Origin: a virus
Direction: 5' to 3' (one strand)
Virus record (IMG/VR): IMGVR_UViG_3300044628_000573
Location: 1-23,467 of that record
DNA length: 23,467 nt
Position 1 is the first letter of the stretch. Every line of letters starts with the position of its first letter. The translations under genes were made by a program, and so were the position numbers. Below the pieces are notes generated by a model, which had not been told where the DNA came from, made no database searches, and was given only the letters and a program-made list of their open reading frames with translations. Below are positions 17,076 to 23,467 of this stretch, piece by piece.

Positions 17076-17091
17076 TAATTTTTTAATTTAG
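17060..17091 (+). promoter_or_regulatory. promoter of the recombination operon (TTTG-N20-TAATTTAG)
   Basis: TTTG at 17060-17063, then exactly 20 nt, then TAATTTAG at 17084-17091 (one or two changes from TAnnTTTG). Transcription would start near 17097-17100, precisely where the first stem of the leader RNA begins. The same N20 layout is seen at 22006-22037. Confidence 0.45.
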
Positions 17092-17098
17092 ATACACC

Positions 17099-17188
17099 GA
17101 CTGGAAGCGGTATTAAAAACATCTTAAGAGCCTTATTTCGGGGGCGGATCTTCCAGTCCAAACCCGGTATAAGGCATTTTTATTTATA
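17099..17188 (+). ncRNA. pseudoknot-type leader RNA upstream of the annealing protein
   Basis: A = GACTGGAAG (17099-17107) pairs perfectly with A' = CTTCCAGTC (17150-17158). B = GCCTTAT (17130-17136) pairs with B' = ATAAGGC (17169-17175); B extends inward through C17139-G17142 with G17166-C17163, with one mismatch and one G-T pair. The order A-B-A'-B' means A' lies in the loop of B, a pseudoknot. B' is followed by ATTTTTATTT, 13 nt before the ATG, as in a terminator tail. A matching element occurs at 22043-22148. Confidence 0.6.
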
Positions 17189-17713
17189 ATGAGTACAGAA
17201 ACAAAAAAACCAAATCTACCAGCAATAGTCAAAGATTTGGGACTATCCGTAAAGATGGATAGTTTAAACACCTTACTGAGCAGTACACCGCCGCAATCTT
17301 GGTTATCCGTTCACAAAGGTATTACCTACCAGCCTATTGATCGGGTAAAAAACAGCCTAATTACTATTTTTCAAGATTATGACTGGAGCATTAAAAATGT
17401 TCAAATTATGGCTAATTCTGTTTTAGTTTTTGGAACGCTATCGGTTATCAATCCGATCACCGGGCGCACTCGTAACGTAGATGGAGTAGGGGCGTGGCCT
17501 ATACAGTTAAAGTCAGGTTCTACACCAATGCAGATTGAAAACATTATTCAAGATGCAATTCAAAAGAACGCCCCGGCTGCCGAAAGCTTAGCACTTAAGA
17601 ACGCTGCATCTAAGCTGGGTAAAATCTTTACCGATGGCGGTTCTGATGTCGAGTTTAACGGAATGTACTCTAAGGATGTACCAATGGATGACATTAAAGC
17701 CTCACAATCATGA
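17189..17713 (+). CDS. putative ssDNA annealing protein (Rad52/ERF-like)
   Basis: 174 aa. It has YQPIDRVKNSLITIFQDYDW (a Rad52-like start of the core), a strand-rich middle (VFGTLSVINPITGRTRNVDG) and SLALKNAASKLGKIF near 150, comparable to the AxKxAAxxLG helix of annealing proteins. It sits just before a YqaJ-type exonuclease and an SSB-like gene, the usual lambda Red-like trio. Expected role: annealing complementary single strands during phage recombination and replication. Subfamily (Rad52, ERF or other) is not certain. A structured leader RNA lies directly in front; the stop overlaps the exonuclease start. Confidence 0.65.
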   Translation: MSTETKKPNLPAIVKDLGLSVKMDSLNTLLSSTPPQSWLSVHKGITYQPIDRVKNSLITIFQDYDWSIKNVQIMANSVLVFGTLSVINPITGRTRNVDGVGAWPIQLKSGSTPMQIENIIQDAIQKNAPAAESLALKNAASKLGKIFTDGGSDVEFNGMYSKDVPMDDIKASQS

Positions 17714-18366
17714 TTATCACCGGACAACAAAACGAAAACCAACGTACCCCTGAATGGCTAAAGTCACGTATGGGGCGTTTCTCTTGCAGTCAACTGCACA
17801 GACTAATGACCGAACCAAAAGCAAAAGCCGATAAGGAAGCTGGCAAATTATCGGATGGCGCAATTACTTATGTGATGGAGTGCATTGCTGAAAAGCTAAC
17901 TGGCAAACCAGCCAAAGAAGATTTTACAAGCAAGTACACCGATTGGGGCGTAATGCATGAACCTATCGCTATTGGTATTTACGAGGAAGTGTTTCAAACC
18001 AAAGTTACGCAATCGGGTTACATTCCGCATGGTGAGAACTTCGGCGGTTCGCCTGATGGCTTGGTAGATGAGGCAGGAGGCATTGAAATCAAATGCCCCT
18101 ATACAATTACTGCGCATTTGGTTCACTCGCTTACAACTGATCTAAAAGCGGATTATAAAGAGTGCTACTGGCAAATTATTGGTTACATGATTATTACCGA
18201 ACGCAAGTGGTTCGATTTTATATCTTATCATCCCGAGTATCCGGGCAAATATCAATTCAAGCGGATTCGTTTAGAACGTGCAAACGTACTGCAAGACATT
18301 GAACTTGCTCAGGATAAAATTAACAAATCAACGCAATATTTAAACCTCATACTAAATTCAATCTAA
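17710..18366 (+). CDS. YqaJ / lambda-exonuclease family nuclease
   Basis: 218 aa. RTPEWLKSRMGRFSCSQLHR opens the family fold; Glu84 in WGVMHEP, GGSPDGLVDE (Asp116), GGIEIKCP (Glu126, Lys128) and ECYWQIIGYM (Gln155) give the PD-(D/E)xK active site in order, with spacing like lambda exonuclease (D119, E129, K131). It should degrade 5' ends of duplex DNA, leaving 3' tails for the annealing protein encoded next to it. ATGA overlap with the annealing gene; the next start overlaps its stop by one base (TAATG). Confidence 0.9.
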   Translation: MIITGQQNENQRTPEWLKSRMGRFSCSQLHRLMTEPKAKADKEAGKLSDGAITYVMECIAEKLTGKPAKEDFTSKYTDWGVMHEPIAIGIYEEVFQTKVTQSGYIPHGENFGGSPDGLVDEAGGIEIKCPYTITAHLVHSLTTDLKADYKECYWQIIGYMIITERKWFDFISYHPEYPGKYQFKRIRLERANVLQDIELAQDKINKSTQYLNLILNSI

Positions 18367-18656
18367 TGGGAAAACCAATGCAAGGCTCAATATGTTTGAG
18401 CGATCTCGCAGATGCTTACAAAGCTGGGCACTCCGCATTTAACAAGTCTGAAAAGAACGGCAAAGTCTACGCTAACATTGCAGTATGGATGAACGATCAA
18501 CCTGATCAATATGGGAACATTCTATCATTGCAGCTAAATTCTAAAAAGGATGCGACTGATGAAAAGGTTTATTTCGGAAATGCAAAAATGCCTGATGGGG
18601 TAAAACCTCAATCAGCACAAACACCAAAAGCAAAGGATGATGATCTCCCCTTTTAA
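18366..18656 (+). CDS. SSB-like single-stranded DNA-binding protein
   Basis: 96 aa. SICLSDLADAYKAG, KVYANIAVWMNDQPDQYGNI and SLQLNSKKD suggest a short OB-fold, and the protein ends DDDLPF, the acidic tip with a terminal Phe by which bacterial SSBs recruit partners. YFGNAKMPDG resembles phage SSB-like proteins. Position in the annealing/exonuclease operon fits. Much shorter than E. coli SSB, so one OB-fold with a brief linker is assumed. Start is coupled to the exonuclease stop. Confidence 0.65.
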   Translation: MGKPMQGSICLSDLADAYKAGHSAFNKSEKNGKVYANIAVWMNDQPDQYGNILSLQLNSKKDATDEKVYFGNAKMPDGVKPQSAQTPKAKDDDLPF

Positions 18657-22029: not shown

Positions 22030-22037
22030 TAAATTTA
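22006..22037 (+). promoter_or_regulatory. promoter of the primase transcript (TTTG-N20-TAAATTTA)
   Basis: TTTG at 22006-22009, exactly 20 nt, then TAAATTTA at 22030-22037 (one change from TAnnTTTG). The expected start near 22043 coincides with the first stem of the leader RNA. Same layout as at 17060-17091, which makes both more credible. Confidence 0.45.
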
Positions 22038-22042
22038 CCTTA

Positions 22043-22148
22043 GCTACAACGTCATGAAAATATTTAAAATTTCCCTCCTGTTCCTTTTACCTGTCATTCG
22101 ATGGGGGCGTTGTAGCGACTTCTTTGGTTCAGGAGGGTTCTTTTAATT
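22043..22148 (+). ncRNA. pseudoknot-type leader RNA upstream of the primase
   Basis: A = GCTACAACG (22043-22051) pairs with A' = CGTTGTAGC (22108-22116). B = CCCTCCTG (22073-22080) pairs with B' = CAGGAGGG (22130-22137), plus an inner CC/GG after two T-T mismatches. Order A-B-A'-B', a pseudoknot. B' contains the SD-like AGGAGG, 11 nt before the ATG at 22149, and is followed by TTCTTTT. Folding would hide the ribosome site or form a terminator. The A-B spacer is 21 nt (22 in the first copy). Confidence 0.6.
22054..22146 (+). CDS. possible leader peptide (30 aa)
   Basis: ATG 22054 opens 30 codons that end with TAA 2 nt before the primase ATG. The peptide begins MKIFKISLLFLLPVIRWG and ends DFFGSGGFF, with a hydrophobic first half. 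The ORF runs through both B arms and A', so a translating ribosome would unfold the pseudoknot. It may be a real leader peptide or chance; the other leader copy has no ATG. Confidence 0.3.
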   Translation: MKIFKISLLFLLPVIRWGRCSDFFGSGGFF

Positions 22149-23467
22149 ATGGATATTTCGCTATTTAATTCGCTGCCCGAAAAAGGCAAACCCCATATTT
22201 CAGATGCTAAAATATCTATTTTAGAATTTCTTCATTACGTTAAGTCTGGCAAGTATAAATTCCAGATTGAACGTATAAGAACTGAGCAGGATAAAACAAA
22301 TCGGGATGCGCTAAAAAAGCAATTACCAGCCGTTACAATTTCTGGAATATTTACTGAACGAAAAGCAGAATTGTTGATTTCTCATTCCGGGTTCATTCAG
22401 ATTGATATTGATCATTTTTCCGATAAATCTGCATTGATCACGGATCCTTATACCTACTCTTTATTTAAGTCCGCATCCGGAGGTGGACTTGCCATAGTAG
22501 TTAAGATAAATTCCGAAAAGCATAAAGAATCTTTTAACTGGTTGCGCAACTATTACTTTCAGCACTTTGGTATTGTAATTGATTCCGCACCGCAAAACGT
22601 GGCATCGCTTAGATTTGTTTCATACGATCCGGAACTCATAACAAATGAGAGGTCAAAGATTGCGCGTACGCTTACAGAAAAAAAGTATGTAAGCAAATCA
22701 TTGCCTATTGTAGTGGATGGCTCACAAGTCGCTGAAATGGTGCAGGAGTGTGTAAACTTGGGCCATAACCTTGCACCAGATTACGATTCATATTTAAAAT
22801 TAGGATTTGCACTTGCGCAAGGATTCCAAGAACAAGGCAGAGAATATTTTCACGCGCTTTGCTCAGTATCTGAAAAATACGATTCGCGCCATGCAGATAA
22901 GCAATTTACTATCTGTCTAAAAGGTAAAAATTCTGGTATAACTGCCGGTACTTTCTACTGGATGCTTAAGCAAGTTGGGATACATGCTCCGGAAAGTCAA
23001 AAGAAAGCCGTACAAGTGGCAACACTTGGCAAACGTGCCGGGCAAACTAAGGAAGAAGTAAAAAAGCAGATTGAGCAAATTACGGGAGTTGATGAAAAAC
23101 AAGCTGATAAATTAGTTAGCGAAGTTTTTAACCGGGATGACATTTCGATAAAATCCGCATCGGGAGATCCCGATCATTTAATACAAGCATTAACGCAATG
23201 GATGAAACAAAATCATCCGATGAAAGTAAATTCCATCACGCGCATAATTGAGGAGAAAAATAACGAGGTCAGGCGCGAAAGAATAAATTCTATTTACCTA
23301 CGTGCAAGAATGTTTTTTAATACAAAGGATATTACAAAGGATTTAGTTGAATCTTATATTTTTAGCGATTTTATTATCGAATACAATCCAATAACGGAAT
23401 ACATTGATAAAAATTTGCACCGAAAATCAGTAGGAAATATTACAGACTTGGCAAAGTGCATCCGATC
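22149..23467 (+). CDS. primase/helicase with VirE_N and PriCT_2 domains, 3' end cut
   Basis: 439 codons in the window, no stop before the edge. Residues about 55-160 fit the VirE_N (BT4734-like) AEP-type primase domain: LPAVTISGIFTERKAELLIS, QIDIDHF with acidic Asp86 and Asp88, and SASGGGLAIVVKI (108-120). Residues about 195-275 fit PriCT_2: DYDSYLKLGFALAQGF, REYFHALCSVSEKYDSRHAD and GITAGTFYWMLKQVG. After about 390 the sequence (IFSDFIIEYNPITEYIDKN) resembles the start of VapE/VirE-like helicase domains, expected to continue beyond the window. Likely role: primer synthesis and fork unwinding for phage DNA. A structured leader precedes it. Confidence 0.82.
   Translation, partial: MDISLFNSLPEKGKPHISDAKISILEFLHYVKSGKYKFQIERIRTEQDKTNRDALKKQLPAVTISGIFTERKAELLISHSGFIQIDIDHFSDKSALITDPYTYSLFKSASGGGLAIVVKINSEKHKESFNWLRNYYFQHFGIVIDSAPQNVASLRFVSYDPELITNERSKIARTLTEKKYVSKSLPIVVDGSQVAEMVQECVNLGHNLAPDYDSYLKLGFALAQGFQEQGREYFHALCSVSEKYDSRHADKQFTICLKGKNSGITAGTFYWMLKQVGIHAPESQKKAVQVATLGKRAGQTKEEVKKQIEQITGVDEKQADKLVSEVFNRDDISIKSASGDPDHLIQALTQWMKQNHPMKVNSITRIIEEKNNEVRRERINSIYLRARMFFNTKDITKDLVESYIFSDFIIEYNPITEYIDKNLHRKSVGNITDLAKCIR

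Follow-up and report, generated by a model that had tools for sequence, protein, structure and literature searches.

Two leaders with interlocked pairings in a phage genome

The window, by which we mean the whole stretch of DNA analysed here, is a 23,467-base virus record. Its genes and relatives point to a Bacteroidota phage; the genomes that match it most closely are a Chitinophaga-binned contig, with a 91% identical primase, and a Pedobacter prophage. Two of its genes are each preceded by a leader in which four segments pair in the order A-B-A'-B':

17084-17091, +: -7-like promoter box TAATTTAG, 5' of the first leader (read from the sequence; box enrichment)
17096-17188, +: first leader element, with A-B-A'-B' pairing
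17096-17111, +: hairpin 1 of the first leader, ACCG[ACTGGAAG]CGGT, its loop (17100-17107) being A (MFE fold, stem covariation)
17112-17129, +: A-rich spacer from hairpin 1 to B (sequence)
17130-17175, +: hairpin 2 of the first leader, the candidate terminator hairpin, with B GCCTTAT at 17130-17136, A' CTTCCAGT apical at 17150-17157 and B' ATAAGGC at 17169-17175 (pairing, covariation, MFE fold)
17176-17188, +: T-rich tract ATTTTTATTTATA, followed by the ATG at 17189 (sequence, T-tract statistics)
17189-17713, +: putative ssDNA-annealing protein gene (position before a YqaJ exonuclease)
22030-22037, +: -7-like promoter box TAAATTTA, 5' of the second leader (sequence, box enrichment)
22041-22148, +: second leader element, with A-B-A'-B' pairing
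22043-22051, +: A (GCTACAACG) of the second leader; flanking 5' hairpin marginal or absent (pairing, fold)
22054-22146, +: possible 30-codon leader ORF across B, A' and B', stopping 2 nt before the primase ATG
22073-22137, +: hairpin 2 of the second leader, with B CCCTCCTG at 22073-22080, A' CGTTGTAGC at 22108-22116 and B' CAGGAGGG at 22130-22137 (pairing, fold)
22138-22148, +: T-rich tract TTCTTTTAATT, followed by the ATG at 22149 (sequence, T-tract statistics)
22149-23467, +: primase (BT4734-like_N and PriCT_2 domain matches), cut by the window end

The pairings reported in a preliminary description of this DNA are present, perfect and interlocked in both elements (GACTGGAAG/CTTCCAGTC with GCCTTAT/ATAAGGC in the first, GCTACAACG/CGTTGTAGC with CCCTCCTG/CAGGAGGG in the second), as are the T-rich tails before the ATG. 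The motif GGGGGCG, which it also listed as shared, does occur in both window elements, but most other members of the class described below lack it. The gene at 17189 is called a putative ssDNA-annealing protein from its place before the exonuclease; its product has one weak match, to a PHROG of unknown function. A small ORF at 18366-18656 has a DDDLPF end resembling the acidic tail of bacterial SSB proteins, and its sole family match is likewise a PHROG of unknown function.

Most leaders of the class have two complementary hairpin loops

Related viral contigs show that the pairing pattern is better read as a kissing loop: a short hairpin at the predicted transcript start carries A in its loop, and a second hairpin, closed by B/B', carries A' in its apical loop. 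In the first leader, A is the 8-nt loop of the 5' hairpin and A' lies in the 6-nt apical loop of the second. Because A and A' both sit in hairpin loops, this element represents a loop-loop contact. Plain MFE folding, which is blind to pseudoknots, returns both hairpins with their complementary loops open for this leader and for the leaders of L057, L060, L112 and L100. In the second leader the 5' hairpin is marginal at best, and the element is more nearly a plain pseudoknot; together with its close relatives it occupies the pseudoknot-like end of the range, in which A is 9-11 nt long and the hairpin around it is slight or absent. The interlocked topology first proposed holds, with most members being kissing loops rather than simple pseudoknots.

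To find relatives, we used the primase and annealing proteins, singly and as alignments, as queries against viral contigs, which yielded more than 100 loci. The leaders of distant primases are unrelated in sequence and share a common plan, in which a promoter-like TATATTTG box is followed by a short hairpin, then by an A-rich spacer, and finally by a second hairpin with a loop complementary to that of the first. For instance, the L100 leader has TGTTAT[GGTCAAG]ATAACA with the second loop CTTGACC, and the L112 leader has AGAAC[GTGCGAG]GTTCT with the second loop CTCGCAC. Spacers between hairpin 1 and B average 50% A (51 elements), and a T-tract and then the start codon lie 3' of B'. When hairpin 2 is folded alone, A' is 80% unpaired, compared with 35% for random placement, a difference that is partly built in by our search descriptor.

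Genes downstream of these leaders encode primases, annealing proteins, ResIII- and SNF2-type helicases, a PIF1-like helicase, an HNH endonuclease, small Zn-ribbon proteins and others. The leader is missing directly before primases that are internal to an operon, and in several such phages (L015, L017, L020, L021, L082, L107, L115) it is found further upstream instead. As a further check beyond the loci on which the descriptor was developed, we searched four cultured Flavobacterium phages and obtained five matches, in 11b, FCL-2, mymlan6-1 (two) and elemoF. Each of the five elements ends 10-23 nt before an annotated CDS start. The available sequence of Cellulophaga phages phi46:1 and phi38:1, Nonlabens phage P12024L and Bacteroides phage B124-14 contained no convincing element.

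The leaders exceed chance expectation

Shuffled copies of the window contain, per strand, about 0.67 exact interlocked pairs confined to 100 nt when A is at least 9 and B at least 7 nt, and about 0.16 when B is at least 8 nt. Random-sequence simulation, by which the preliminary description had proposed its arrangement could be refuted, thus leaves single elements only modestly unusual. A loose, energy-based single-sequence descriptor also gave many chance matches in shuffled DNA, and was replaced by anchored and shuffled tests. Because the significance of a single element is modest and the loose descriptor matches by chance, the case rests on comparison of loci.

For the shuffle test, we took the 165 nt before the start codon at 41 primase loci, with 300 dinucleotide shuffles of each. 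Among primases with an intergenic leader of at least 90 nt, 15 of 21 scored at p≤0.01 (combined p 1.2e-21), compared with 2 of 20 operon-internal primases, which lack an intergenic leader of that length. One of these two, L024, does carry a leader, its intergenic length being shortened by an overlapping reading frame.

The anchored descriptor required a promoter-like box, a T-tract and a start codon. With a score cut-off of -30 or below, it gave 36 matches at 49 loci, some of which had served to develop the energy descriptor; all 36 lay on the gene strand, and the opposite strand had none. At -34, 32 matches lay on gene strands of phage loci and one in 380 kb of Pedobacter chromosome, both strands; these thresholds were set by hand, and many loci are related, so the counts represent non-independent events. 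The single Pedobacter match has a promoter box and start codon, and its B/B' helix is weak and large in span. A weak kissing score or a weak T-tract was seen in the primase leaders of L033, L038, L095 and L023.

The complementary loops change together

We reasoned from a sequence-based alignment of 15 annealing-gene leaders (alignment A5), in which the proposed structure pairs in 92.8% of cells. Seven pairs changed on both sides, compared with 1.2 after shuffling; none of 500 shuffles scored as high, and slid controls gave 0-2. A MAFFT alignment of the distant primase leaders was unreliable in hairpin 1 and was left out of the covariation analysis.

The strongest single case of covariation, as read from the aligned leaders, is that of L057 (1679-1772) and L060 (4108-4201). 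Their genes are 96% identical in DNA and their leaders nearly alike outside the loops, which change from CTGGAAG/CTTCCAG to CTGCTAC/GTAGCAG through three compensatory double changes, as if loop specificity had been switched. One stem pair has also changed, from A-U to C-G.

The primases of L090 and L100 are 94% identical in protein and have leaders of unrelated sequence and common plan, and loop pairs differ between orthologous Zn-ribbon genes and helicases. The annealing protein of L054 is 91% identical to that of the window, and the two leaders are unrelated in sequence; that of L054 (1472-1560) is completely different and of similar plan, which suggests that the leader is replaceable as a module. 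The automatic A/A' assignments for L090, L096 (5577) and L034 (5632) are weak and are not to be counted. Overall, related loci strongly support a class of phage leader RNA in which pairing is kept independently of sequence, as the preliminary description had suggested from two examples, and further examples upstream of replication genes were found many times over among the viral contigs.

Predicted terminator and promoter, and leader open reading frames

Because a T-tract and then the start codon come after B', hairpin 2 resembles an intrinsic terminator. In a search that did not require a T-tract, at least 5 of the 8 nt after B' were T in 16 of 17 primase leaders; as a control, the best 8-mer reached at least 5 T in 29% of 215 upstreams, and the ordinary upstream regions of these phages are rich in A (41% A, 28% T). 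The candidate terminator hairpins have a median energy of -22 kcal/mol, and the arrangement characteristic of intrinsic terminators, a GC-rich hairpin followed directly by a T-tract, lies between promoter and start codon. A simple terminator scan flagged neither window hairpin, probably due to their large loops and inner stems.

No antiterminator helix was found among the 51 elements: the best upstream competitor reached a median of 0.39 of the B/B' energy, and at least 0.8 in two. A classical two-state switch is therefore not visible. Because upstream segments rarely compete with B/B', A/A' is the only other pairing able to modulate the terminator in cis.

The predicted promoters are placed according to the known Bacteroidota -7 consensus. 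Strict TAnnTTTG boxes lie upstream of hairpin 1 in 18 of 51 elements, compared with 3.2 expected, and -7-like boxes end at most 7 nt from hairpin 1 in most primase leaders.

Two kinds of leader ORF were seen. One, of about 30 codons, occurs in the window at 22054-22146 and in L010, L100, L023 and L096 (1447), with a stop that falls between 2 nt short of the downstream ATG and 4 nt beyond it; this spacing suggests translational coupling with the downstream gene. In the first window leader, that of the annealing gene, there is no such ORF. The other, of 8-10 codons, is found in the L024:5976 region and its relatives L034, L103 and L026, and in L110:1392-1482. Its stop coincides exactly with the 3' end of B, and a ribosome positioned there would therefore occlude B and prevent the terminator from forming.

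A probable cis-acting attenuator

Taken from sequence comparison, the reading that we consider probable is that the leader is a cis-acting kissing-loop transcription attenuator, and not a put element. Transcription would start at a Bacteroidota-type promoter just 5' of hairpin 1, which would fold at once and expose loop A. After passing the A-rich spacer, the polymerase would make hairpin 2, whose stem B/B' and T-tract would serve as an intrinsic terminator directly ahead of the start codon; we infer that termination occurs here. The terminator loop A', being complementary to loop A, would kiss it, most likely capturing and preorganising the emerging terminator. Many transcripts would then stop after about 90-130 nt. 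Disturbing the contact or the stem would allow the gene to be expressed; this could be done, for example, by a ribosome on the leader ORF (in some members), by a protein of the phage or host, or by a different RNA. That the kiss favours the terminator is a judgement rather than a result; we consider it the more likely direction because loop-loop contacts are compatible with both stems and stabilise them.

Terminator-based attenuators of the trp type, ribosomal-protein leaders and transcriptional riboswitches likewise place a GC-rich hairpin and T-tract in a 5' leader before the first gene. Here, however, neither an alternative antiterminator helix nor a conserved ligand-pocket sequence was found, and the apical loop of the terminator pairs with the loop of a promoter-proximal hairpin. 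Because the mutually exclusive antiterminator helix was not found, we do not file the leader as a classical two-state attenuator.

Alternatively, the leader could act on translation, as a kissing or pseudoknotted structure bound by a protein or the ribosome with the T-rich tract as an unstructured ribosome entry region, on the model of the phage T4 gp32 and ribosomal protein S15 leaders. The end of B' about 10-24 nt before the ATG in most members would suit this, as would the ORFs of several primase leaders that stop beside the downstream ATG, but the tract after B' is rich in T where ordinary upstreams are rich in A, the stem base is GC-rich and terminator-like, and the annealing-gene leader of the window lacks an ORF, so we regard translational control as rather unlikely. 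The T4 gene 32 leader resembles ours in having a pseudoknot and an A/U-rich stretch before a replication gene; here, in contrast, the T-tract abuts the stem, and leaders of unrelated sequence precede varied genes. Autogeny of the gp32 type, in which the gene encodes the ssDNA-binding protein that binds its leader, does not fit a set of primases, helicases, PIF1, HNH and others. The likeness to HK022 put sites drawn in the preliminary description fares worse. In such a put- or nut-like element the polymerase would be modified by the folded leader, with or without a phage protein, to read through later terminators. HK022 put sites give factor-independent read-through of distant terminators by way of the beta' zinc-binding domain. 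The putL and putR sites have sequence in common and bind the zinc-binding domain of the polymerase (PMC9378689), and they too are two-hairpin structures that start early transcripts and occur more than once per genome (PMC9378689), the start being placed here by promoter-like boxes. The window copies and their relatives, however, share architecture and loop-loop complementarity but no primary sequence, and a T-tract directly after hairpin 2 puts a terminator-like site inside the element itself, which makes a put-like role decidedly improbable.

The 6-8 nt complementary hairpin loops, the association with replication genes, and loop sequences that vary while the architecture stays constant are shared with plasmid loop-loop RNAs (ColE1 RNAI/RNAII, R1 CopA/CopT, the pT181 attenuator). 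Kissing loops and an attenuator before replication genes would fit antisense attenuation of the pT181 type, in which termination is forced by a counter-transcript that pairs with the loops of the leader. In our leaders, however, both loops lie in one transcript, and opposite-strand -7 boxes show no excess (8 observed, 6.1 expected, as a promoter-box proxy only); because the needed counter-promoter is not enriched, we do not assign the leaders to this type, and consider it very unlikely. Chance inverted repeats, or a DNA-level element such as an operator or origin, would account for the frequent matches of the loose descriptor to shuffled DNA and the modest rarity of each window element alone, but the class is strand-specific (36 to 0), anchored to start codons and covaries in RNA-type pairs, so that this explanation has almost no weight left.

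Besides any action in cis, terminated leader RNAs might conceivably provide gene-specific feedback in trans, with a private specificity in each loop pair, much like plasmid incompatibility RNAs; we think this improbable. Were it true, loop-loop contacts would let a phage genome sense a superinfecting relative or its own copy number. Within one genome, cross-pairing of different leaders averages -3.8 kcal/mol, compared with -13.2 in cis and -4.3 for random pairs. Fast loop switching between genes that are nearly identical and weak cross-pairing are compatible with trans feedback and do not demand it.

Occurrence and reach of the class

An Rfam covariance-model search at gathering score found no match in the window or ten relatives. 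A search of open-access papers, which is weak evidence of novelty, found no description of the leader class. Because only complementarity is conserved, sequence-profile searches can hardly find it. With matching loops that change sequence together, it looks like an undescribed family of built-in RNA brakes in many Bacteroidota viruses. To our knowledge, little is known of early-gene regulation in Bacteroidota phages; the attenuator reading, if true, would give these phages a widespread RNA control device, and it predicts short leader RNAs in the cultured phages 11b, FCL-2, mymlan6-1 and elemoF. The orthogonal loop pairs could also be natural parts for RNA circuits.

One leader of Flavobacterium phage 11b (L141:33634-33718) and one of a metagenomic phage (L084:3912-3996) have nearly the same loop pair, GGGCAGG/CCTGCCC, and both precede small hypothetical genes.
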